A stretch of 52,745 bases of DNA from contig JAGRLT010000162.1 of NCBI GenBank assembly GCA_020441665.1, forward strand, positions 1 to 52,745, in the 5' to 3' direction. Every line of letters begins with the position of its first letter. The first letter of the stretch is position 1. The position numbers and the translations under genes are program-made. Below the pieces are notes generated by a model, which did not search any database, was not told the origin of the DNA, and saw only the letters and a list, made by a program, of their open reading frames with translations. Positions 13,669 to 32,941 of the stretch are shown piece by piece. The DNA is from Nitratireductor sp. (GTDB lineage: Bacteria > Pseudomonadota > Alphaproteobacteria > Rhizobiales > Rhizobiaceae).

Positions 13669-13808
13669 CGGGAATTCCGTTCCCGATCGGCATCAAACCG
13701 CAAAACCAGCTTGCGCTGAATGAGGCATTCGAGGCATCGCCATTTCTTGCAATGGCTGCGATGACGCAATATGCCTCGCGCCAGTTTTCCCAATTCTTAC
13801 AGGTAATC

Positions 13809-14717
13809 ATGTCCGACCGGCGATTGACCCATTTGCAGAAGCTCGAGGCGGAGAGCATCCACATCATGCGCGAGGTTGCGGCGGAAGCCGAGAACCCCGT
13901 CATGCTCTATTCCATCGGCAAGGATTCGGCGGTCATGCTGCATCTTGCCATGAAGGCGTTTCACCCCGGCAAGCCGCCCTTTCCGCTGCTGCATGTGGAT
14001 ACGACCTGGAAGTTCAAGGAAATGATCCGCTTCCGCGACGAGATCGTCGCCCATCTGGGCCTCAAGCTGATCGTCCATATCAATGAAGAGGGCGTCCGCC
14101 AGGGGATCGGGCCGTTCAGCCACGGTTCGGCGCTGCATACCGATGTGATGAAGACCGAGGCGCTGAAGCAGGCGCTCAACCTGTACAAGTTCGATGTCGC
14201 CTTCGGCGGCGCGCGGCGCGACGAGGAAAAGTCGCGGGCCAAGGAACGCATCTTCTCCTTCCGCACCACCGACCACCGCTGGGATCCGAAGAACCAGCGG
14301 CCGGAATTGTGGAAGCTCTACAATACCCGCAAGGCACCGGGGGAATCGATCCGCGTCTTCCCGCTGTCGAACTGGACCGAGCTCGACATCTGGCAATACA
14401 TCCACCTCGAGAAGATCCCGCTGGTGCCGCTCTACTATGCGGCCGAGCGGCCGGTGGTCAAACGCGACGGCACGCTGATCATGGTCGATGACGAGCGCAT
14501 GCCGCTGAAGGATGGCGAGATGCCCGAAATGAAAATGGTGCGCTTCCGCACGCTGGGCTGCTACCCGTTGACCGGGGCGGTCGAGAGCGAGGCGGCAACC
14601 CTGCCGGACATCATCCAGGAAATGCTGCTGACGACGACCTCCGAGCGCCAGGGCCGGGTGATCGATCACGATCAGGCCGCTTCGATGGAGAAGAAGAAGC
14701 AGGAGGGCTATTTCTGA
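13809..14717 (+). CDS. cysD: Sulfate adenylyltransferase subunit 2
   Basis: Small catalytic subunit of ATP sulfurylase, making adenosine 5'-phosphosulfate from sulfate and ATP in assimilatory sulfate activation. The PP-loop-type [10 protein letters not shown] is at residues 35-44, and [27 protein letters not shown] and the C-terminal GRVIDHD are typical. The frame opens at 13752, but the ATG at 13809 gives 302 residues, the length of E. coli CysD, so it is preferred. The stop overlaps the cysNC start (TGATG), so the two subunits are made together. Confidence 0.96.
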
Positions 14718-16630
14718 TGGCTCACCAGTCCGATCTCATCGCCTCCGATATCGAGGCCTATCTCAAATCGCATGAGGAAAAGTCGCTGCTGCGGTTCATC
14801 ACCTGCGGCAGCGTCGATGACGGCAAGTCGACGCTGATCGGCCGCATGCTGTATGAATCGAAGATGATCTTCGAGGACCAGCTTGCAGCCCTTGAGAGCG
14901 ATTCGAAGAAGATGGGCACCCAGGGCGAGGCGCTGGATTTCGCGCTGCTCGTCGACGGCCTTGCCTCCGAGCGCGAGCAGGGGATCACCATCGATGTCGC
15001 CTACCGCTTCTTCTCGACCGACAAGCGGAAATTCATCGTCGCCGACACGCCGGGGCACGAGCAATATACCCGCAACATGGCGACGGGCGCCTCGACCGCC
15101 GATCTTGCCGTCATCCTGATCGACGCGCGCAAGGGCGTGCTGACCCAGACGCGGCGCCATTCCTTCATCGTCTCGCTGCTCGGCATCCGCAATGTGGTTC
15201 TGGCCGTCAACAAGATGGACATGATGCATTACGAGAAGGCGGTGTTCGACGAGATCGTCGAGGATTACCGCGCCTTTGCCGCACAGCTCGGCAATGGCGA
15301 GGTGCCGTTCGAGATCGTGCCGATCCCGATGTCGGCCCTGAAGGGCGACAATGTGGTCGAGCACAGCGCCAAAATGCCCTGGTATGACGGGCCGGCGCTA
15401 CTGCCCCATCTCGAAACGGTTTCGGTGCAGGCGACCGAGATCGAAAAACCGTTCCGCCTGCCGGTGCAGTGGGTCAACCGGCCCAATCTCGATTTCCGCG
15501 GTTTTGCCGGCCAGATATCGACCGGGGTGATCCGCAAGGGCGACAGGGTCAAGGTACTGCCCTCGGCGGTCGAAAGCACGGTCAAATCCATCGTCACCTA
15601 TGATGGCGAGCTCGAGGAGGCGATTGCCGGCCAGTCGGTGACGCTCTGCCTTGCCGACGAGATCGACATTTCGCGTGGTGACGTCCTCTGCGAGGCGGGC
15701 AGTCCGGCGGAAGCGGCCAACCAGTTCGAGGCGACGGTTCTGTGGATGTCGGAAGACCCGATGCTGCCGGGCCGCACCTATGTCATGAAGAGCGGCACCC
15801 AGACAGCGCGGGCGACGATCACCGCGCCCAAATACAAGGTCAACGTCAACACGCTCGAACATCTGGCGGCGAAGAAGCTCGACCTCAACGAGATCGGCGA
15901 ATGCAACATCGCCATCGACAAGAAGCTCGTCTTCGATCCCTATCTGGAAAACCGCGACACCGGCAGTTTCATCCTCATCGACCGGCTGACCAATGCGACG
16001 GTCGGCATGGGACTGCTGCGCTATGCGCTGCGGCGCGCCTCCAACATTCACTGGCAGGCAACGGAAATCTCCAAACCGGCGCGCGCCGCCATGAAGGCGC
16101 AGAAGCCGGCCGTGCTGTGGTTCACCGGCCTGTCGGGCTCCGGCAAGTCGACGATCGCCAATATTCTCGAGAAGAAACTGTCGGCCATGGGCAAGCACAC
16201 CTATCTGCTCGACGGGGACAATGTGCGCCACGGCCTCAACAAGGATCTCGGCTTTACCGATACCGACCGCGTCGAGAACATCCGCCGCGTCACCGAGGTC
16301 GCCAAGCTGATGACCGATGCCGGCCTCATCACGCTGGTTTCTTTCATCTCGCCGTTCCGCTCCGAGCGGCAGATGGCGAGGATGGCGATGGAAGAGGGCG
16401 AGTTTCTCGAAATCTTCGTCGATACGCCGCTGGCGGTTGCCGAAGAGCGCGACGTCAAGGGTCTCTACAAGAAGGCGCGGGCGGGCGAGATCAAGAACTT
16501 CACCGGCATCGATTCGCCGTATGAAACGCCGCAAAACGCCGAAATCATCGTCAATACGGTGGAGCGCAGCGCGGAAGCGGCCGCCGACCACATTCTCGAA
16601 GTGCTGGAGGCTAGGGGTTTTCTGAGCTGA
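14717..16630 (+). CDS. cysNC: Bifunctional sulfate adenylyltransferase subunit 1 / APS kinase (CysN-CysC fusion, NodQ-like)
   Basis: A 637-residue fusion. The N-terminal GTPase (CysN) drives ATP sulfurylase: G1 GSVDDGKST at residues 31-39, DTPGHEQY and NKMD follow, then EF-Tu-like beta-barrel domains. The C-terminal APS kinase starts near residue 450, with Walker [10 protein letters not shown] at about 471-479 and the [10 protein letters not shown] block, and makes PAPS. Rhizobial NodQ proteins have this architecture. No nod genes are present, so a housekeeping sulfur-assimilation role is most likely. Confidence 0.96.
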
Positions 16631-16739: not shown

Positions 16740-17519
16740 ATGAAACCGTTGCTGATTCTGGTGGGTGCCGACAAGGGCGGCGTGGGCAAGACGACGACGT
16801 CCCGGGCGTTGCTGGATTTCCTCGCCCGCAAGAACGTGCTCGCCCGGGCCTTCGACACGGAAAATCCGCGCGGTACGCTGCACCGCTTCTATCCGGCGAT
16901 CACCGAGATCATCGATCTCGGCGAAGTGCGCGACCAGATGAAACTGCTCGATACGATGCAGTCCGCGGCGGTCAAGGTTTCGGTGGTCGATCTCAAGGCG
17001 GGCAGCCTGTCGCGGGCGCTCGACACGTTCGAGAAGATCGGCGTTCTGGAGGCGGCGCGCGGCGGCGAATTCGACCTGGCGCTGTTCCACGTGGTCGGGC
17101 CGTCGATCGCCTCGCTCGACGAGATGGGCGAGATCGCACAATACACCAAGGGTATCTCCTACATCGTCGCGCGCAATTTCATCAATGAAACCAACTTCTT
17201 CGAGTGGGACGAGAAGACCTTCAAGAAGTATTTCGCGGGGCTCTCCAATGCGCGGGAGATCGAGGTTCCCAAGCTCAACGAGATGGCCTATGAGCAGGTC
17301 GATCTTGCCGGCGTCACCTTCAGCGATTTCATCAACAACCGGCAGCCCAATGGCCGCAGCGGCGATTATTCCTTCGTTCTGCGCGGCTATGTGCGCAAAT
17401 GGCTGAGCGATCTCGACGCCGAATTCGACAAGCTCGATGTGGTCAAGGCGCTGCTGGCGCCGCAGGCCGGCGCCTCCGCCGAAGAGGGCGCCTCCACTGA
17501 GGAGAACGGCGACGCCTGA
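16740..17519 (+). CDS. ParA/MinD-like P-loop ATPase, function unknown
   Basis: A 259-residue protein with the deviant Walker A KGGVGKTT at residues 12-19 and FDTENPRGTLHRFYP following where ParA-type proteins have switch I. The rest has no plasmid-partition features, and the C-terminus ends in an Ala/Glu-rich tail. No ParB, MinC/E or flagellar genes are nearby. The next gene encodes a protein with the same block order (FDT, xFP, IID, DT), so the pair probably arose by duplication and may act together. The cellular role cannot be named from sequence. Confidence 0.75.
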   Translation: MKPLLILVGADKGGVGKTTTSRALLDFLARKNVLARAFDTENPRGTLHRFYPAITEIIDLGEVRDQMKLLDTMQSAAVKVSVVDLKAGSLSRALDTFEKIGVLEAARGGEFDLALFHVVGPSIASLDEMGEIAQYTKGISYIVARNFINETNFFEWDEKTFKKYFAGLSNAREIEVPKLNEMAYEQVDLAGVTFSDFINNRQPNGRSGDYSFVLRGYVRKWLSDLDAEFDKLDVVKALLAPQAGASAEEGASTEENGDA

Positions 17520-17552
17520 GCGGCTTCGGCCCGACTATGCTGAGGTGAACCG

Positions 17553-18254
17553 ATCGCCCATTCGCTCGCCATTGTCTGTTCCGACGAGCCGCGCAATGGC
17601 AAGACGCTGCTGGCGCGCATCCTGGCCGACGCGCTGTCGCTTTCCGGTGCCGCGTCGATGCGCATTTTCGACACGGATTTTCCCAACGGCGTCCTGGCGG
17701 GCTATTTTCCGCAGAGCAGCCGGGTGATCGATTTTCGCAAGACCGCCGAACACGTCATGCTGTTCGACACGATCATCGGCGAGCCGCAATACGATTATCT
17801 GATCGATCTCGATGCGAGCCTGCTGGACCGGTTCTTTCGCCTGTATCGCGATATCGCCTTCGATGCCGGCGCGGCCGAGCAGGGCATGCGGATCACGGTC
17901 TATTTTCTGCTCGACCGTACGCTTTCCTCGGTGGAGGCCGCCGCCGAAACCCGCCAGCTTGCCGGGAAGGTCGCCTTCGTGCCGGTGCGCAATGAGGCGA
18001 TCGGCAATATCCTTGCCGTGCCGCAAGGGGCGAAACGGTATCACGCCATCGAGAAGAGCCGGGAAATCCTGCTGCCGCGCCTGTCGGTCGACGCACTTAA
18101 TCTGATCGAAGGGCCGGATTTCAGTTTCGGGGCCTTCATCGCGCGCAATGGCGAGGGTTACCCACTGGAATTGAAAGTCGAACTGTTTCAGTTTCTCGAA
18201 ACGATCTATAACCAGCGTCGCAGCGACGAAAGCGGTATGCCGGTCGCACTTTGA
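17553..18254 (+). CDS. Second ParA/MinD-like protein, degenerate P-loop; start codon unresolved
   Basis: The coding frame clearly extends upstream of the first ATG (17658): it reads IAHSLAIVCSDEPRNGKT and continues with LLARILADAL, a strand, loop and helix matching the Walker A region of the preceding gene but without its glycines. An in-frame TGA at 17541 closes the frame, and between there and the loop there is no ATG, GTG, TTG or CTG. A GTG at 17545 is one base out of frame; one extra base near 17552 would give MNRIAHS. So either a rare ATC/ATT start is used, there is a sequence error, or the gene is frameshifted. The coordinates mark the first plausible codon. Confidence 0.6.
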   Translation: MAHSLAIVCSDEPRNGKTLLARILADALSLSGAASMRIFDTDFPNGVLAGYFPQSSRVIDFRKTAEHVMLFDTIIGEPQYDYLIDLDASLLDRFFRLYRDIAFDAGAAEQGMRITVYFLLDRTLSSVEAAAETRQLAGKVAFVPVRNEAIGNILAVPQGAKRYHAIEKSREILLPRLSVDALNLIEGPDFSFGAFIARNGEGYPLELKVELFQFLETIYNQRRSDESGMPVAL

Positions 18255-18328: not shown

Positions 18329-19663
18329 ATGGCTTCCAATGTCCATCTGACCGGGCTTGCGCGCGAACTGGCCGAGCGCCAGCGCGCCGGCCGGCCGGTG
18401 CGTATCGGGCTGGTGGGGCTCGGCGAGATGGGGACCGACATCTTCACCGGCATAGCCCAGATGGACGGGATCGAGATCGCCACCGTGTTCGAGCGCACGC
18501 CGGGCCGCGCGTCGCAGGCCGCGAAGATTGCCTGGGGCGATGACGGGATGATCCGCAATGGCGAAAGCCATGATGCGATCTCCTCGGCGATCGAGGCGGG
18601 CAGGATTGCGGTCACCGCCGATCTCGACCTTGCGCTGTCGCACGATCTGGTCGATGTCGTCATCGACGCGACCGGCGTGCCGGAGGCCGGCGCGGATATC
18701 GGCATGCGGACGATTGCCGCCGGCAAGCACCTCATCATGATGAATGTGGAATGCGATGTCTGCATCGGGCCCTATCTCAAGCACGAGGCCGACCGGGCCG
18801 GCGTGATCTATTCGGTCGGCGCCGGCGACGAACCGTCGTCGACGATGGAGATCATCGAATTCGTCACCGCCATGGGCCATGAAGTGGTCTGTGCCGGCAA
18901 GGGCAAGAACAATCCGCTCAATTTCGAGGCGGTTCCCGACGATTACGAGGAAGAAGCCCGGCGGCGGAACATGAATGTGCGCATGCTGGTCGAATTCGTC
19001 GACGGTTCGAAAACCATGGTCGAGATGGCGGCGATCGCCAATGCGACGGGGCTGGTGCCCGACATTCCGGGCATGCACGGGCCGCGCGCCACGGTGAGCG
19101 AGCTGGCGTCGACGCTGATCCCGAAGGCCGATGGCGGCGTTCTGTCGAAGACCGGCTGCGTCGACTATTCGATCGGCAAGGGCGTGTCGCCCGGCATCTT
19201 CGTCATCGTCAAGGCGAAGCATCCGCGCATTCACGAGCGCTTTGCCGATCTGAAGATGGGCGAGGGACCGTATTACGCGTTTCACCGGCCCTATCACCTG
19301 ACCTCGCTTGAAGTGCCGCTGACGGCGGCGCGCATCGTGCTGCACGGCAAGGCCGACATGGTGCCGCTGCCGCGCCCGGTGGCCGAGGTCTGCGCCGTCG
19401 CCAAGCGCGATCTCAAGCCCGGTGAAGTGATCGATGCGGTCGGGCAATACTGCTACCGATCCTGGACCATGACGGTGGCGGAAGCACGGGCGGCGGATGC
19501 CTGGCCCTGCGGCCTGCTCGAACAGGGCAGGGTCACCAAACCCGTCGCGAGAGGAGCGCTGCTGACCCGCGACAATGTCGCGATCCGCCAGGACAGCCGC
19601 ATCGCCCGGTTGCGCGCCCGGCAGGACGCGATGATCATGGCGATGGATCAGGCGGCCGAATAG
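18329..19663 (+). CDS. drl: DXR-like protein (DRL), 1-deoxy-D-xylulose 5-phosphate reductoisomerase of the Brucella type
   Basis: A 444-residue protein with an N-terminal homoserine-dehydrogenase-like Rossmann fold (GLVGLGEMGTD, residues 27-37) and a C-terminal SAF-like domain. Blocks such as GAGDEPSSTMEIIEFV, AGKGKNNPLNF and YHLTSLEVPLT match what I recall of Brucella DRL, an enzyme unrelated to classical DXR that reduces and isomerises DXP to MEP. The DXS gene follows directly, which supports this reading over a homoserine dehydrogenase. The frame is open from 18251, but the ATG at 18329 has an AGAGGGG site and matches the usual N-terminus; 18290 is an alternative. Confidence 0.85.
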   Translation: MASNVHLTGLARELAERQRAGRPVRIGLVGLGEMGTDIFTGIAQMDGIEIATVFERTPGRASQAAKIAWGDDGMIRNGESHDAISSAIEAGRIAVTADLDLALSHDLVDVVIDATGVPEAGADIGMRTIAAGKHLIMMNVECDVCIGPYLKHEADRAGVIYSVGAGDEPSSTMEIIEFVTAMGHEVVCAGKGKNNPLNFEAVPDDYEEEARRRNMNVRMLVEFVDGSKTMVEMAAIANATGLVPDIPGMHGPRATVSELASTLIPKADGGVLSKTGCVDYSIGKGVSPGIFVIVKAKHPRIHERFADLKMGEGPYYAFHRPYHLTSLEVPLTAARIVLHGKADMVPLPRPVAEVCAVAKRDLKPGEVIDAVGQYCYRSWTMTVAEARAADAWPCGLLEQGRVTKPVARGALLTRDNVAIRQDSRIARLRARQDAMIMAMDQAAE

Positions 19664-19829
19664 GCCCGCTTTCGCGCGCTTGCTGCGGCGAACCATCGCG
19701 TTTTCCCCGCCTTGAAATGATCCCGTGAGCGGCCAAGTCTGTTTGTACTTTCGCCATGAAGCGTCTAGAAACACGCCCGAATGGTTATCGGAGCGCCGTG
19801 GGGGCGCAGGATTGCAGGACTGAACAGGC

Positions 19830-21749
19830 GTGAGCGAACGACCCCAGACCCCGTTGCTTGATACGGTCAACATTCCGGCCGATCTGCGCCGGCTCGACGA
19901 GACGCAGCTCAGGCAGTTGGCCGACGAATTGCGCGCCGAGATGATCGACGCGGTGTCGGTGACCGGCGGTCATCTGGGGGCGGGGCTCGGCGTCGTCGAG
20001 CTGACGGTGGCGATCCATTACATCTTCAACACGCCCGACGACCGGCTGATCTGGGATGTCGGCCATCAATGCTATCCGCACAAGATCCTGACCGGCCGGC
20101 GGGACCGCATCCGCACGCTGCGCCAGGAGGGCGGGCTGTCGGGCTTCACCAAGCGCGACGAGAGCGTCTACGATCCGTTCGGCGCGGCGCATTCCTCGAC
20201 CTCGATCTCGGCCGGCCTCGGCATGGCGGTGGCGCGGGAGCTTTCGGGCGGCGCCAACAATGTGATCTCGGTGATCGGCGACGGCGCGCTGTCGGCCGGC
20301 ATGGCCTATGAGGCGCTCAACAATGCCGGCGCGATGGATGCGCGGCTGATCGTCATCCTCAACGACAACGACATGTCGATCGCGCCGCCGACCGGCGCGA
20401 TGAGCGCCTATCTCGCCCGCCTCGCCTCGGGCCGCACCTATATGGGGATGCGCGAACTCGGCAAGAAGCTCACCGCCTATCTCGGCAAGACGATCGACCG
20501 GGCGATCACGCGGGCGGTCGAGCATGCCCGCGGCTACGTCACCGGGGGAACGCTGTTCGAGGAGATGGGCTTCTATCATATCGGCCCGATCGACGGGCAC
20601 GATCTGGCGACGCTGGTGCCGGTGCTGCGCAATGTGCGCGACAATGCGAAGGGCCCGGTGCTGATCCATGTGGTGACGCGCAAGGGCAAGGGCTATCCGC
20701 CGGCGGAGGAAGCGGCGGACAAGTATCACGGCGTGTCGAAATTCGACGTCATCACCGGGGCGCAATCCAAGCCGCCGGCCAATGCGCCGAGCTATACCAA
20801 GGTGTTCGGCCAGGCGCTCGCCCGCGAGGCGCAGGAAGACGAGAAGATCGTCGGGATCACCGCCGCCATGCCGGACGGCACGGGGATCGATATTTTCGGC
20901 AAGGCGTTTCCGAGACGCGCCTTCGATGTGGGAATTGCCGAGCAACATGCCGTGACCTTTGCGGCGGGCCTTGCAAGCGAGGGCTACAAGCCGTTCTGCG
21001 CGATCTATTCGACCTTCCTGCAGCGCGCCTACGACCAGGTGGTGCACGACGTCGCGATCCAGCGGCTGCCGGTGCGCTTTCCCATCGACCGGGCGGGCTA
21101 TGTGGGCGCCGACGGCGCGACTCATTGCGGCGCCTTCGACACCACCTTCCTGTCGACCCTGCCCAATTTCGTCGTCATGGCGGCAGGCGACGAAGCCGAG
21201 CTGAAGCACATGGTGCGCACGGCAGCGGCCTATGACGAAGGGCCGCTTTCGTTCCGCTATCCGCGCGGCAACGGGGTGGGGGTCGATCTGCCGGAGCGCG
21301 GCAGTCTTCTCGATATCGGCAGGGGCCGCGTCCTGCGCGAGGGCACGAAAGTGGCGCTGCTCTCCTTCGGCGCGCGGCTTGCCGAATGCCTCACCGCCGC
21401 CGAGCAACTGGGCCAGGCGGGCCTGTCGACCACGGTTGCCGATGCGCGCTTCGCCAAGCCGCTCGATATCGCGCTGGTGGAGCGGCTGGCGCGCGAGCAT
21501 GAAGTGCTGATCACGGTGGAGGAAGGCGCCATTGGCGGTTTCGCGGCGCAGGTATTATCGCATCTTGCCAAGGCCGGCCTTCTCGATGGCGGGCTCAAGA
21601 TCCGGCCGCTCTTCCTGCCCGATGAATTTTCCGACCACGCCTCGCCGGGCGCGATGTATGCCCGCGCCGGCCTCGACCATGAGGGCATCGTGCGCGCGGC
21701 GTTCGAGGCGCTCGGCCGCCAGGATGTGGAGAGCGTGCTGCGTGCGTGA
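19830..21749 (+). CDS. dxs: 1-deoxy-D-xylulose-5-phosphate synthase
   Basis: Thiamine-diphosphate enzyme of 639 residues condensing pyruvate and glyceraldehyde 3-phosphate to DXP, the first MEP-pathway step. Visible features are [17 protein letters not shown], the GDG...ND thiamine-diphosphate motif (about residues 150-179), the transketolase-type [17 protein letters not shown] and a C-terminal swivelling domain. GTG start at 19830, 166 bases after DRL, so the genes may be co-transcribed. Because its product is the DRL substrate, the pair forms the entry to isoprenoid synthesis. Confidence 0.95.
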
Positions 21750-21912: not shown

Positions 21913-23370
21913 ATGAACGCGACCCGTCGCACCGTTCTCGGTGCCCTTGCCGCCACCACTGCGCTCAGCACTGTCCGCCTCGCATCTGCCCAATATCCGG
22001 GCCTGCCGGTGAGCCATACCCGCCGCGACGTCAACACGCTTGCCGCGGACGATCCGATCATCACCACCTACCGAAATGCGGTCGCCGAGATGCAAGCGCG
22101 TCCCGACGGCGATCCGCTGTCCTGGGAGCATCAGGCGAGCATTCACAATAATTTCTGCCCGCACGGCAACTGGTTCTTCCTGCCCTGGCACCGCTGCTAT
22201 CTCGCTCAGTTCGAGGATGTCATCCGCCAGGTCGCCAACGATCCCGAATGGACGCTGCCCTATTGGGACTGGACGCGCAATCCGCAGATACCGGCGCCGT
22301 TCTGGGGCGCGGACAATGCGCTCAGCCATCCGCGCAGCGCCGGTCCCGCGACCAGCATGCCGTCTGAATTCGTCGGCGAACCGGTGATCCGGCAGATCAT
22401 GGCAAAGCCGACCTTCGAGGAGTTTGCCAGCTTCAAATCGCTTGCCCCCTATGGCGGCACGGATGGCGGATACGGACAGTTGGAACAGCAGCCCCACAAC
22501 AGGGTTCACGGCGTTGTCGGCGGGGACATGGCCACCTTCATGTCGCCGCGAGACCCGATCTTCTGGCTGCACCACTGCAATGTCGACCGCATCTGGGCGA
22601 GCTGGAACGCGGCGGGCAATGCCAACACCTCCGATCCCGTTCTTGCCGATTTCACCTTTGCCGCCGACCAGCCCGATCATCTTGGCGACGTTCATGCCAG
22701 CCAGTTCGTCAATCCCGACGGCTCGCCGCGGATTTTCACCGTCAATGAGGTCTATGCGACGCAGCAATTGATGTATGTCTATGACCGGCTCGAACCGGTG
22801 CCGCAGACCAATACCGTGATCGCGATGCAAAGCCTTGCGGCACAGCGGATGGCGGCGGAAACGCTGAGCGCCAATCTGCAGCGGTCGGTAGCGGCTGGTG
22901 TCGCGCTCGAAACGGCAGTCGCCATAGAGCCGGCCGTGGTCGATGCGGTGGCCAATACCGGCCGCATCCGTTCGCTTGCGGTGCCGCAAAACAGCAATTT
23001 CGCCATGCCGCGGCAGATTTCCACGGCCAAGCTGAAAATCCGCGGGCTCAAGGCGCCGGCCGGGCCGGATACGGCCTTCCGGGTCTTCATCAACTGCGAT
23101 TATGTCGGCCTTGAAACGCCCATAAACGATCCCCACTATGTCGGCTCTGGCGCGTTCTTCATGAACGGGGTCAGCGGCGAAGGCCATCATCATCAGGGTG
23201 GCGTGGATTTCGTGCTTGACCTTACCGAGGCGCTCGATGCGTTGCGACGGTCGGGCAATGGGGTCGGAGGTCAGATACGGCCACAGGTCCTGGCCATCAC
23301 CAGTGACGGCAAGGGCACGGAGCTTGCAATTGACGGTGCGTTCGACATCACGGTTGAGACAGTGGGCTAG
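21913..23370 (+). CDS. Tyrosinase family copper oxidase, Tat-exported
   Basis: A 485-residue type-3 copper protein that would oxidise phenols or catechols to quinones. Residues 1-26 are a Tat-like signal (TRRTVLGALAAT to ASAQ). Copper site A is in the segment with His78, His84 and His93 (PWHRCYL); Cys82 could form a thioether with a ligand His. Copper site B has His195, His199 (PHNRVHG) and His220/221 (FWLHHCNVDRIW). Beyond about residue 330 a separate domain contains FRVFIN, YVGSGAFF and a GHHHQGG stretch, like the shielding domain of plant polyphenol oxidases. The reading frame of the next gene overlaps its end. Confidence 0.93.
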   Translation: MNATRRTVLGALAATTALSTVRLASAQYPGLPVSHTRRDVNTLAADDPIITTYRNAVAEMQARPDGDPLSWEHQASIHNNFCPHGNWFFLPWHRCYLAQFEDVIRQVANDPEWTLPYWDWTRNPQIPAPFWGADNALSHPRSAGPATSMPSEFVGEPVIRQIMAKPTFEEFASFKSLAPYGGTDGGYGQLEQQPHNRVHGVVGGDMATFMSPRDPIFWLHHCNVDRIWASWNAAGNANTSDPVLADFTFAADQPDHLGDVHASQFVNPDGSPRIFTVNEVYATQQLMYVYDRLEPVPQTNTVIAMQSLAAQRMAAETLSANLQRSVAAGVALETAVAIEPAVVDAVANTGRIRSLAVPQNSNFAMPRQISTAKLKIRGLKAPAGPDTAFRVFINCDYVGLETPINDPHYVGSGAFFMNGVSGEGHHHQGGVDFVLDLTEALDALRRSGNGVGGQIRPQVLAITSDGKGTELAIDGAFDITVETVG

Positions 23371-29078: not shown

Positions 29079-29792
29079 TCAATCCGTGCGGATGACGGCC
29101 AGCCGGGCATAATCGCGGTACAGGCTTTCGAATTCCATGGTCGCGTTGCCGGCAAGGTCCGTGAGCACGGCTTCGAGGCCGGTTCGCGGTTCGACGTGGA
29201 ATCTCGCCAGCCAGAGGCGCAACAGGCGGCCGAAGATCGCCGGCATCCCGTCCTGACGACCGAAATCGGCAATATGCACGCTGCCGCCGGGCGCCGTGGC
29301 GGCAAGGCCTGCCCGCAGGGCGGAAGGCCAGTCGGGGATCATCGACAGGCTGTAGGAAAAGATCACCCGCTCGAAAGTCGTGGTGCCGAACAGGGTTTGC
29401 GGGTCGAAGGCCTCCGCATTGCCCTCGGCGAGGGCGATGCGGGACGACAATCCGGCACGGCGGACGGAATGGCGGGCGGTTGCGAGCATTTCAGGCGAAA
29501 TGTCGAAGCCGTAGAGCCGGGCATCGGGATAGGCGCGGGCGATGCGGATGAGGTTACGCCCGGTGCCGCAGGCGATTTCCAGCACCTTGCCGCCCGGCGG
29601 AACCTCGAGCCCGGCGATGAGCCTGTCGCGGCCGAGCAGGTAATATTTGCGGCTGAGATCATAGATGTGGCGTTGCCGGCGGTAGACGGTGTCCATAAGG
29701 CAGCCATGGCCGCCGGGCCCGGCCTGGAGCGCGGTGCCGGCGGTGCGTGTCGCGATGGTGCCGGCCGGTCGCGCGTGCTCGGTCATCTGCAT
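29079..29792 (-). CDS. btaB: BtaB-like SAM-dependent N-methyltransferase of betaine-lipid synthesis
   Basis: A 237-residue class I methyltransferase with SAM motif KVLEIACGTGRN (about residues 69-80), preceded by the YRRQRHIYDLSRKYYLLGRDR block typical of BtaB. BtaB adds three methyl groups to the homoserine amine of the BtaA product, giving the phosphorus-free lipid DGTS. The gene starts 7 bases after btaA on the same strand. An ATG at 29696 (MDTVYRRQ) fits the usual family start and may be the true one; the longer start is kept because it is coupled to btaA. Confidence 0.88.
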   Translation of the reverse strand: MQMTEHARPAGTIATRTAGTALQAGPGGHGCLMDTVYRRQRHIYDLSRKYYLLGRDRLIAGLEVPPGGKVLEIACGTGRNLIRIARAYPDARLYGFDISPEMLATARHSVRRAGLSSRIALAEGNAEAFDPQTLFGTTTFERVIFSYSLSMIPDWPSALRAGLAATAPGGSVHIADFGRQDGMPAIFGRLLRLWLARFHVEPRTGLEAVLTDLAGNATMEFESLYRDYARLAVIRTD

Positions 29793-29798
29793 TCCCGC

Positions 29799-31034
29799 TT
29801 ACGCCAATGAATAAAGATGGAAGCCGCCATAGATCGCCGAGCGGTCGGCGCGGCTCATCGCGAGGCTCTCGGCCGGATGATAGCGCCAGCGTGCGAGAAT
29901 TTCGGGCAAGACGCGGCCGGGCAGCAGGCTCGGCTCCGCTGCCGTGCGGAAGACCACGCGGGCACCCGGCCTGGCGGTCCGGGTGATCTCGGCCCACAAT
30001 TCGTTGAGCTGGGTGTCGGTCATCCAGTCCTGGGCGTCGAGCAGGACGTAGCAGTCCTGGCTTTCATCGGCCTCGCCGGCGAGGAAATCGGTGACGGATT
30101 CATGGAGCACACGGACCCGGCCGGCGCGCTGGCGGATCGCCTGGAAATGGCGGGCCTGCAGATAGGGCGGCAGCGGGCCGCTTTCGCCACCGGTTTCACC
30201 ATAGCCGCGGCCAAAGGCCTGCCAGGCGAAATAGTTTTCCGACAGGGGAAAATCGCAGGCGAGCCTTTCAAGCCGCCGGCGCAGAACCGCCGACATGTCG
30301 CCATTGCCCGAGGCGGCGAGCGCCGCATACTGGGCCGGCGGAATGCCGAGGCCGAACAGCGAGGCGCGGCGCGAGGTCGCCCAGCGGATCAGCCGCTTGT
30401 CGAACAGCGGGGCGAGCGCGGTGTCAAAAAAGCCGCGTTGTTCCTCGAGCGAACGCGCGGCGAGAAGGTCGCCGGGATCGATGCCGTACAGGCGGGCGAT
30501 GCGGTGGGCGGCGCCGATGAACCCTCCCAGCAGGCCGTGGCGATAAAGGTTGCGCGAAAACAGCGTGATGCGGCGGCGGCCGGTCAGCCCGCGCCTTTCC
30601 CAATAGGCGCGGCTTTCGGCATCAAGATGCGGCTTGATGAAGCGCTGATAGGCGGAAAGATTGGTCTTTTCATCGGCTTTGCCGAAGAAACGGTAGAAGG
30701 CGTCATAGCCCGGCAATTGGCGCGCGGCGGCGAGTTTGAGGCGGGTCAGTGCCACATGGGCATGGTTGAGATCGACCGCCGTTACGTGTGCCGGATCGGC
30801 GGTAAGGTAGGACAGGATGTTGCAGCCGCCCGAGGCGATGGCGACGATCCGGTCGTCGGGCCGGATCGCCAGCGCCTTCAGGTCGATCTCGGGGTCTTCC
30901 CAGATCTGCGGGTAGACGAGCCCCTTGAAGAGTAAGGTGAACAGGCGCTCGGAAACGCCGTTGGCGCTGAGCCGTGCGTTCCGATGAACGGCGCTGGCGA
31001 GCAGTTTCGTATTGGCGGCGGTTTTGACGGTCAT
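29799..31034 (-). CDS. btaA: BtaA, S-adenosylmethionine:diacylglycerol 3-amino-3-carboxypropyltransferase
   Basis: A 411-residue DUF3419 protein. Segments such as LVYPQIWEDPEID, IASGGCNILSYL, VDLNHAHVALTRLKLAA and YVLLDAQDWM are typical of BtaA. It moves the aminocarboxypropyl group from SAM to diacylglycerol, the first step of DGTS synthesis, at the inner membrane. In rhizobia and Rhodobacter this lets cells save phosphate. The ATG at 31034 has a CGGAGG site; the frame open to 31142 runs into the cobQ start. A half-conserved PHO box lies about 45-60 bases upstream. Confidence 0.93.
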   Translation of the reverse strand: MTVKTAANTKLLASAVHRNARLSANGVSERLFTLLFKGLVYPQIWEDPEIDLKALAIRPDDRIVAIASGGCNILSYLTADPAHVTAVDLNHAHVALTRLKLAAARQLPGYDAFYRFFGKADEKTNLSAYQRFIKPHLDAESRAYWERRGLTGRRRITLFSRNLYRHGLLGGFIGAAHRIARLYGIDPGDLLAARSLEEQRGFFDTALAPLFDKRLIRWATSRRASLFGLGIPPAQYAALAASGNGDMSAVLRRRLERLACDFPLSENYFAWQAFGRGYGETGGESGPLPPYLQARHFQAIRQRAGRVRVLHESVTDFLAGEADESQDCYVLLDAQDWMTDTQLNELWAEITRTARPGARVVFRTAAEPSLLPGRVLPEILARWRYHPAESLAMSRADRSAIYGGFHLYSLA

Positions 31035-31077
31035 GGCGGCCTCCGGTCGAATCGTCGCCCCTCGATAGGGTCGGGCC

Positions 31078-31095
31078 GTGTAGGTTTGATGACAG
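31078..31095 (-). promoter_or_regulatory. Possible PHO box upstream of btaA
   Basis: On the minus strand this reads CTGTCATCAAACCTACAC: one perfect CTGTCAT half-site, a 4-base spacer and a poor second half (4 of 7). btaAB are under PhoB control in Sinorhizobium, and the distance to the btaA start fits a promoter. The site also lies 40-57 bases upstream of cobQ on the other strand. Confidence 0.45.
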
Positions 31096-31134
31096 CGATT
31101 CCATCTCGGCGTGAAAGGCTCTAAGAACGCCGGT

Positions 31135-32616
31135 ATGACCAAGGCGCTGATGTTTCAGGGAACCGGATCGGATGTGGGCAAGACCGTGCTCGTTGCCGGG
31201 CTTTGCCGTGCGCTGAAGAAGCGCGGCCTTCGCGTCCTGCCCTTCAAGCCGCAGAACATGTCGAACAATGCCGCCGTCGCCGATCCCGACGGAGATGGGA
31301 CGGGCGGCGGCGAAATGGGCCGGGCGCAATGGCTGCAGGCGCTGGCCTCGGGCGTCGCGCCTTCGGTGCACATGAACCCGGTGCTGCTCAAGCCGCAATC
31401 GCAGACCGGCAGTCAGATCATCGTGCAGGGCAAGGTCCATGGCACGGCAAGCGCGCGCGACTATTTTGCGCTCAAGCCGCATTTGCTCGAAAAGGCGATG
31501 GAGAGTTTTACGCGGATTGCCGGGCGCGCCGATATCGTGCTGGTCGAGGGGGCGGGATCGCCCGCCGAAATCAACCTCAGGGCGGGCGATATCGCCAATA
31601 TGGGCTTTGCCGGGCGTGCCGGCCTGCCGGTCGTGCTGGTCGGCGATATCGACCGGGGCGGGGTGATCGCCTCGATCGTCGGCACCCACACGATCCTGCC
31701 GCAAGACGACCGGGGCCGCATTGCCGGCTATCTCATCAACAAGTTCCGGGGCGACCTGTCGCTGTTTGATGACGGGCTTGCGGCGATCACGCGCTTTACC
31801 GGCTGGCCGTCCTTCGGGGTGTTGCCGCACCTTGATTGCGTGCGGCGCCTGCCGGCCGAAGACAGCGTGGCGCTCGACCGGATGATGCGCGGCAAGGGCG
31901 GCGGGCTTAAAGTGATCGTTCCGGTGCTGGGCAAGATCGCCAATTTCGACGATCTCGATCCGCTGGCCGCCGAGCCCGGCGTCGATCTCGTCCATCTGCG
32001 CAGGGGAGAGGCCTTTCCGGAGGATGCCGCGCTCGTCATCCTGCCCGGTTCGAAATCGACCATCGCCGACCGGATCGAGTTCCGCGACAATGGCTGGGAT
32101 CAGGGGCTTCACGCCCATGTGGCGCGGGGCGGGCAGGTGATCGGCATTTGCGGCGGCTATCAGATGCTCGGCAGGAAAATCAGCGATCCCGCCGGCATCG
32201 AGGGCGCGGTGCGGGAGGTCGAAGGTCTCGGCCTGCTCGACATCGAGACCGTGCTCGAAGGCGAGAAGACCGTTCGCAATTCGGCGCCCAGGCTAGCCGA
32301 AAACGGCATTCCGCTTGAGGGCTATGAGATCCATCTGGGTCGCACGGAGGGGCCGGATTGCGGCCGGCCGGTCATCATAAGCGACCGGGGCGCCGATGGC
32401 GCGCGGTCCGCCGATGGCCTCGTATCGGGCTGCTACCTGCACGGGCTGTTCGGCTCGGACGGCTACCGCAGGCATCTGCTGGCCGGATTCGGCGTCGAAA
32501 GCGATGGCAATTACCGTGCCGGCGTCGAAGCCGCGCTCGATGCCCTTGCCGAAGCGATGGAAGCGCATCTAGACGTGGACGGGCTGTTGCGGCTTGCCGC
32601 GCCGGTCGGAATTTGA
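31135..32616 (+). CDS. cobQ: Cobyric acid synthase
   Basis: A 493-residue enzyme that amidates adenosylcobyrinic acid a,c-diamide at positions b, d, e and g to form adenosylcobyric acid. Residues 8-17 carry the P-loop-like GTGSDVGKT of the dethiobiotin-synthetase-like domain. The C-terminal class I glutamine amidotransferase has GICGGYQMLG with nucleophile Cys339 and a late GCYLHGLFGSDG carrying a catalytic His. The ATG at 31135 fits the family N-terminus better than an in-frame GTG at 31111. Divergent from btaA; a cobalamin riboswitch lies downstream, so cobQ itself is not behind it. Confidence 0.95.
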   Translation: MTKALMFQGTGSDVGKTVLVAGLCRALKKRGLRVLPFKPQNMSNNAAVADPDGDGTGGGEMGRAQWLQALASGVAPSVHMNPVLLKPQSQTGSQIIVQGKVHGTASARDYFALKPHLLEKAMESFTRIAGRADIVLVEGAGSPAEINLRAGDIANMGFAGRAGLPVVLVGDIDRGGVIASIVGTHTILPQDDRGRIAGYLINKFRGDLSLFDDGLAAITRFTGWPSFGVLPHLDCVRRLPAEDSVALDRMMRGKGGGLKVIVPVLGKIANFDDLDPLAAEPGVDLVHLRRGEAFPEDAALVILPGSKSTIADRIEFRDNGWDQGLHAHVARGGQVIGICGGYQMLGRKISDPAGIEGAVREVEGLGLLDIETVLEGEKTVRNSAPRLAENGIPLEGYEIHLGRTEGPDCGRPVIISDRGADGARSADGLVSGCYLHGLFGSDGYRRHLLAGFGVESDGNYRAGVEAALDALAEAMEAHLDVDGLLRLAAPVGI

Positions 32617-32677
32617 CGCAGATCGCGTCGCAATTCGATTGACGGTTTTCGCTCCCGCGCGTTACAACGAAAAGATC

Positions 32678-32890
32678 GACCGGTTCCCGGCATGGCCAAA
32701 GGCCTCGGGATCAAAAGGGAACAGGGAAGGATGGACCCAAGCAGGGCATCCCCAACCTGGCCGACCCCGCGACTGTATTGCGGCGAGGGCGTTTCGAAAC
32801 CACTGGCAGTGCCGTGCCTCGACAGGTGCGACACAATGCCGGGAAGGGGGAACGACCGCTGGAGCCGTGAGCCAGGAGACCTGCCAGTCG
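32678..32890 (+). ncRNA. Cobalamin riboswitch upstream of cbtB
   Basis: The 5' part has GGTTCCC (32682-32688) facing GATCAAAAGGGAAC, the usual P2/J region. CCCCGCGACTGTA lies mid-way, then CCACTGG and CCGGGAAGGGGG. The B12 box AGCCAGGAGACCTGCC (32870-32885) is perfect. It should bind adenosyl- or methylcobalamin and repress cbtB-cbtA and probably the whole cobU-cobW-cobN-cobO run. A perfect 7-bp hairpin (TGGCGGC 32894-32900 with GCCGCCA 32905-32911) follows at once and may belong to the expression platform, about 20 bases before the ribosome-binding site. Confidence 0.95.
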
Positions 32891-32941
32891 GTATGGCGGC
32901 AAGAGCCGCCAGGATACCATCTGAGCAACACGGAGGTTGTC

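Follow-up and report, generated by a model that had tools for sequence, protein, structure and literature searches.

A probable type II DXP reductoisomerase gene adjoining dxs in a Nitratireductor draft genome, and the lineage-restricted pairing of the two genes

The window analysed here, a 52,745-nt stretch of contig JAGRLT010000162.1 from Nitratireductor sp., contains a gene, drl, whose sequence indicates that it almost certainly encodes a true type II DXP reductoisomerase (DXR-II) that stands in for classical DXR (DXR-I, IspC), which is absent from the draft. This assignment draws on: membership of the family; the diagnostic residues; the absence of DXR-I and HMG-CoA reductase from the draft; the presence of DXS, IspDF, and IspG; and the adjacency of drl and dxs within the lineage (Table 1).

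DXS joins pyruvate to glyceraldehyde 3-phosphate to form DXP; DXR-II, using NADPH and a divalent metal, then rearranges this product and reduces it to MEP. Here, the proposed entry to the MEP pathway of isoprenoid synthesis would involve: formation of DXP by the adjacent DXS, supplying the substrate of the drl product; isomerization and reduction of this DXP to MEP by the drl product, presumably with NADPH; and passage of MEP on to IspDF and IspG. Placement of the two genes side by side would aid their co-expression. The enzyme type, an uncommon alternative to classical DXR, is already known and is used in a known way; the lineage-restricted pairing with dxs is the one point that may be modestly new.

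Table 1. Positions of the features under discussion, in window coordinates
Feature	Position	Strand	Remarks
cysD + cysN/C (sulfate adenylyltransferase)	13752..16630	+	outside MEP pathway
drl (DXR type II, DXP reductoisomerase-like)	18329..19663	+	444 aa; 3upl alignment, PF21135, ten residues
drl residues 142, 145 and 277	18752-18763 and 19157-19159		lineage-specific cysteines
drl-dxs spacer	19664..19829		166 nt, drl stop to dxs start
dxs	19830..21749	+	TIGR00204 793 bits (cut-off 466); only dxs found in genome

Family membership of the drl product

Translation of drl starts at an ATG, upstream of which the open frame continues to a TTG at 18251. The protein aligns over nearly its whole length to Brucella abortus DXR-II (3upl, 3upy; Carretero-Paulet et al. 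2013, PMC3847144). The best match among all PDB chains is 3upl (664 bits, E 7.5e-199, residues 1-439, zero gaps), and 3upy, given as B. abortus DXR-II in the available text of that paper, scores 663 bits (E 1.4e-198, residues 1-436, zero gaps). Identity to Brucella-labelled loci is 66-68%. In Pfam, DRL_cat (PF21135) reaches 232.5 bits against a cut-off of 27. Homology along the full length of the characterised Brucella enzyme, together with the DRL catalytic domain, places the protein in the DXR-II family.

The first-pass annotation had described a protein that looks like homoserine dehydrogenase plus SAF and whose blocks match Brucella DRL. The blocks are borne out by the 3upl alignment and PF21135, and the look is also recovered: NAD_binding_3 (homoserine dehydrogenase) scores 28 bits (cut-off 24), and SAF scores 20.5 bits, slightly below its cut-off of 21. 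These two matches are what favors a homoserine dehydrogenase or other amino-acid pathway enzyme, a reading of negligible probability. The far stronger DRL_cat match lies within the same protein, and the sole homoserine dehydrogenase among the PDB matches listed, 3mtj, scores 15.7 bits against the 664 of 3upl. The homoserine dehydrogenase/SAF identity is thus outscored and was rejected, and PF21135 with the 3upl and 3upy alignments carries the DRL assignment over it. An NCBIfam search of the protein gives zero families at E <= 0.001, consistent with the earlier remark that this function is often missed in annotation. Where no NCBIfam model finds the protein, gene order argues for the function of drl, and a search for PF21135 is advisable whenever dxr is annotated as missing from a genome of this kind.

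Residues distinguishing DXR-II from DLO proteins

PMC3847144 distinguishes DXR-II from the related families DLO1 and DLO2, which it treats together with DXR-II in one tree; four DLO1/DLO2 proteins were tested for complementation of a dxr mutant, and all failed. Such relatives suggest an alternative in which drl encodes a DXR-II-like oxidoreductase of the DLO type, lacking DXP reductoisomerase activity, while the unsequenced remainder of the genome holds a classical dxr. This alternative is very improbable on the residues. Because the alignment is gapless, Brucella numbering applies to the drl protein, and all ten published DXR-II residues are present and identical to those of the B. abortus enzyme. 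Following the lists in the available text of PMC3847144, they comprise: K191, K193, and T229, which bind substrate or fosmidomycin; E174, F178, R320, and Y322 of the dimer interface; and G121, T229, H250, and V351, which discriminate DXR-II from DLO proteins. Position 229 is described there as Leu/Ile/Val in DLO1 and Pro/Ser/Ala in DLO2, whereas the drl protein has Thr229 with Gly121, His250, and Val351. The identity to Brucella-labelled loci and the gapless match to 3upl likewise argue against a DLO-type protein and for DXR-II.

All ten residues occur in 14/14 DRLs of the dxs-linked lineage described below. Among the unlinked relatives (n=66, the 67 loci minus L055, a read containing a stop), G121, E174, F178, K191, K193, T229, H250, and R320 are found in 66/66, Y322 in 54/66, and V351 in 62/66. 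A further 29 loci from the order sample keep E174, F178, K191, K193, T229, H250, and R320 in every case, with G121 in 22/29, Y322 in 27/29, and V351 in 25/29.

Seven DRLs (L006, L007, L010, L014, L015, L018, L019) have Ala121, a residue reported in DLO proteins in the available text of the 2013 paper. As these retain T229 and H250 in genomes without PF02670, G121 may be dispensable for DXR-II function. Separately, a deep branch of nine DRL rows (L020, L022, L026, L027, L029, L030, L031, L032, L034; SH-aLRT 100) retains all ten DXR-II residues and has Gln instead of Glu at position 33. PF02670 is absent from 7/9 of its genomes, several of which have more than one DRL_cat gene. This branch is possibly an early-branching DXR-II group.

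Classical DXR and MEP genes in the genome

The window's genome is a draft of 3.34 Mb in 173 contigs, 93.65% complete. The first-pass annotation proposed searching it for a classical dxr, and the profile search of this draft finds none: the classical DXR domains PF02670 and PF08436 each give 0 matches. The drl product would share its reaction with classical DXR and differs from it in belonging to another protein family. In 14 control genomes, PF02670 gives matches in 10 and PF08436 in 9, E. coli and Caulobacter being among the genomes matched. The Methanocaldococcus jannaschii control is above cut-off for PF02670 and unmatched by PF08436, so a PF02670 match by itself may overcall DXR-I.

DRL_cat has one match in the window's genome, and dxs has one at E <= 1e-50 (TIGR00204). 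PF13292 also gives three weak matches (22-30 bits, above its cut-off of 21.2). As TIGR00204 does not list these at 1e-50, they are not taken as DXS; we infer related transketolase- or dehydrogenase-type enzymes. Of the other MEP enzymes, IspF and IspD are found in a single frame (PF02542; bifunctional NF006899 435 bits, cut-off 417), and IspG is also found. HMG-CoA reductase (PF00368) has no match in the draft. With DXR-II and no DXR-I in a 93.65% complete draft, the genome resembles class A of PMC3847144, under which the available text of that paper already describes DXR-II-only Alphaproteobacteria.

DXR-II is very probably the only enzyme of this genome with DXP reductoisomerase function. 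The missing part of the draft could contain dxr, and the DLO-type alternative draws on this incompleteness. It is countered by the relatives: PF02670 is found in 0/35 genomes, a set made up of the window's genome, 13 linked genomes, and 21 from the 67 unlinked, the survey being of PF02670 and the PF08436 search covering the window's genome. Two of the 35 genomes have no dxs match, so some of them are incomplete.

Across a sample of 199 genomes of the order, "DXR-II-type" was defined, after the table had been seen, as a best DRL_cat match that scores 212 bits or more and covers 489-495 nt. PF02670 is missing in 26 of the 33 DXR-II-type genomes vs 8 of the 166 others (Fisher p 2e-19, a test that ignores kinship), and 7/33 have both DXR types. 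Weaker DRL_cat matches occur widely across the order and give the DLO-type alternative some footing, as genomes with only such matches have PF02670 in 67/70 cases. The uniform absence of PF02670 from the 35 genomes speaks against that alternative. The window's genome offers a clean genomic case for DXR-II as sole DXP reductoisomerase within the lineage to which Ahrensia and Oricola belong. Three genomes of the window's family (G105, G069, G136) have two strong DRL_cat genes each, with PF02670 absent.

Linkage of drl and dxs among relatives

The linkage sample comprises the best 80 of 580 confirmed loci, ranked by similarity, and may omit records that belong to the window's genome. Flanks were examined for dxs over up to 6 kb, with at least about 1 kb downstream, and are shorter at contig ends. 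In the 13 nearest loci (L035-L047, 73-88% identity), dxs lies directly downstream of drl on the same strand in 13/13, giving 14/14 in the lineage when the window is counted. This adjacency also tells against a DLO-type protein. In the 67 more distant loci (L048-L114, 65-68% identity), dxs is found in 0/67 flanks; L062, L071, and L082 match just a portion of DXS at 23-25%, which is taken to reflect a related thiamine enzyme.

The linked records are labelled Ahrensia, Oricola, Oceaniradius, and Roseitalea, together with metagenome-assembled genomes labelled Nitratireductor, Phyllobacteriaceae, or Hyphomicrobiales. Isolates that carry the Nitratireductor name (L062, L065, L070) belong to the unlinked group. 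In each of the 13 linked genomes, the dxs adjacent to drl is the only one over the cut-off. The neighboring genes set the window apart from Brucella as well, as dxs is absent from the examined flanks of the Brucella-labelled loci fetched.

The earlier proposal that linkage independently supports function therefore stands within the lineage (14/14) and fails for DRL genes at large (0/67), and the pairing as a general hallmark of DXR-II was rejected on the same count. The drl-dxs pairing is lineage-specific support for DXR-II function. For G228, a 30-kb separation of drl and dxs on a single contig, suggested by matching numbers, was dropped because the two contigs are of unequal length (73,624 vs 101,185). 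A literature search, among the titles listed and mostly open papers, gave none on drl-dxs adjacency. A term search of the available text of PMC3847144 gave no mention of synteny, with DXS and "operon" once each (a figure legend and a reference title).

The drl-dxs spacer

The first-pass annotation placed dxs directly after drl, and this is correct in that the genes are immediate neighbors, separated by a gap and neither touching nor overlapping. The spacer has no Rfam match and folds no better than its shuffles (z-score 1.59; 195/200 shuffles fold at least as well), and thus gives no sign of a riboswitch or structured RNA. A promoter scan of the window gives zero promoter-like matches in the spacer or ahead of drl back to 17400. 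The terminator scan lists none in the spacer on the + strand and one terminator-like site on the - strand (19792-19776). Co-transcription of drl and dxs is possible.

Spacers in the lineage run to ~117-288 nt, measured to the likeliest dxs start, the one closest to the homologous region; upstream in-frame starts would shorten some of them, for example to 84 in L035. By eye, some of these spacers contain TTGACA-like stretches. Together with the spacer lengths, this makes an own promoter for dxs conceivable in the lineage and weighs against treating the pair as an established operon.

Origin and persistence of the pairing

In a quick-method tree built from 64 DRLs, the window's plus 63 of 108 relatives, the 14 linked DRLs form one clade (SH-aLRT 99). 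A dxs clade mirroring it was not recovered: in the unconstrained DXS tree the linked rows are split on a weak backbone, although the one-clade hypothesis is not rejected (p-AU 0.183). The DXS tree thus leaves both drl and dxs as candidates for the gene that moved.

The comparison of dxs neighborhoods covered 30 of 33 genomes in which dxs is matched. The tlyA gene lies by dxs in 13/16 unlinked loci and in none of the 14 linked loci within a 1.5-kb flank (L118 ends at dxs). On these counts, the usual arrangement in the group seems to be dxs-tlyA, and drl-dxs its replacement. The best tlyA match in the window's genome (176 bits, below the family cut-off of 186) is on a different contig.

On the other side of drl, cysN, mostly with cysD, occurs in the drl flank of 12/13 linked relatives, in both orientations and at varying distance; in L045 the drl match begins just 323 nt into the contig. 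Since the orientation of cysN/cysD varies among these relatives, the drl-dxs pair has outlasted changes around it. This bears on whether the adjacency is simply left over from a single rearrangement, neutral and functionally meaningless, which would be compatible with drl encoding DXR-II. Such a relic is a serious possibility that falls a little short of even odds. A single origin suffices for it, given the one clade of linked DRLs; the gaps are wide and variable; and relatives manage without adjacency. Set against it, the pair is kept in 14/14 loci down to 73% identity while its neighbors change: cysDN shifts in orientation and distance, and a tyrosinase gene follows dxs in the window alone.

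Lineage-specific cysteines

Besides the pairing, the linked DRLs differ from Brucella DXR-II in lineage-specific substitutions, including C142, C145, and C277, which are among 26 lineage-specific positions. The CxxC at 142/145 is complete in 13/14 linked DRLs, and C145 and C277 each occur in 14/14. Outside the lineage (n=66), the residues are A142 in 66/66, T145 in 65/66, and V277 in 65/66, with L099 the single outside protein carrying C145 or C277. One reading is that the Ahrensia/Oricola/Nitratireductor-like lineage holds drl-dxs as a selected MEP-entry pair, its DXR-II having gained a set of cysteines sensitive to redox state or metal. We regard this as unlikely, with a small chance of being right. 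If it were true, the steps of MEP-pathway entry would be regulated jointly, with oxidative state as one possible signal.

Other genes in the window

The interval between cysN and drl (16740-18254) holds two adjacent genes. The first encodes a 259-aa ParA/CbiA-like ATPase with weak Pfam matches below curated cut-offs; the second is a 198-aa ORF without a Pfam match, whose reading frame extends upstream past the first start codon and which may begin earlier. Among the loci fetched outside the window's genome, only L035 and L036 have this pair at the same place. Directly after dxs, 21913-23370 encodes a tyrosinase-domain protein (132 bits), a gene unmatched in all 13 linked loci (L043 ends at dxs).

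Further downstream, 29079-31142 on the - strand encodes a DUF3419 protein (385 bits) and then a small methyltransferase-like protein with no model over cut-off among those listed, a pair that presumably resembles betaine-lipid BtaA/BtaB. A cobalamin riboswitch (RF00174, 83.8 bits) lies at 32664-32902. The cobalamin genes by it, within 31111-51790, include: a CobB/CobQ-type amidotransferase; CobW; CobN; CbiG; and tetrapyrrole methylases.
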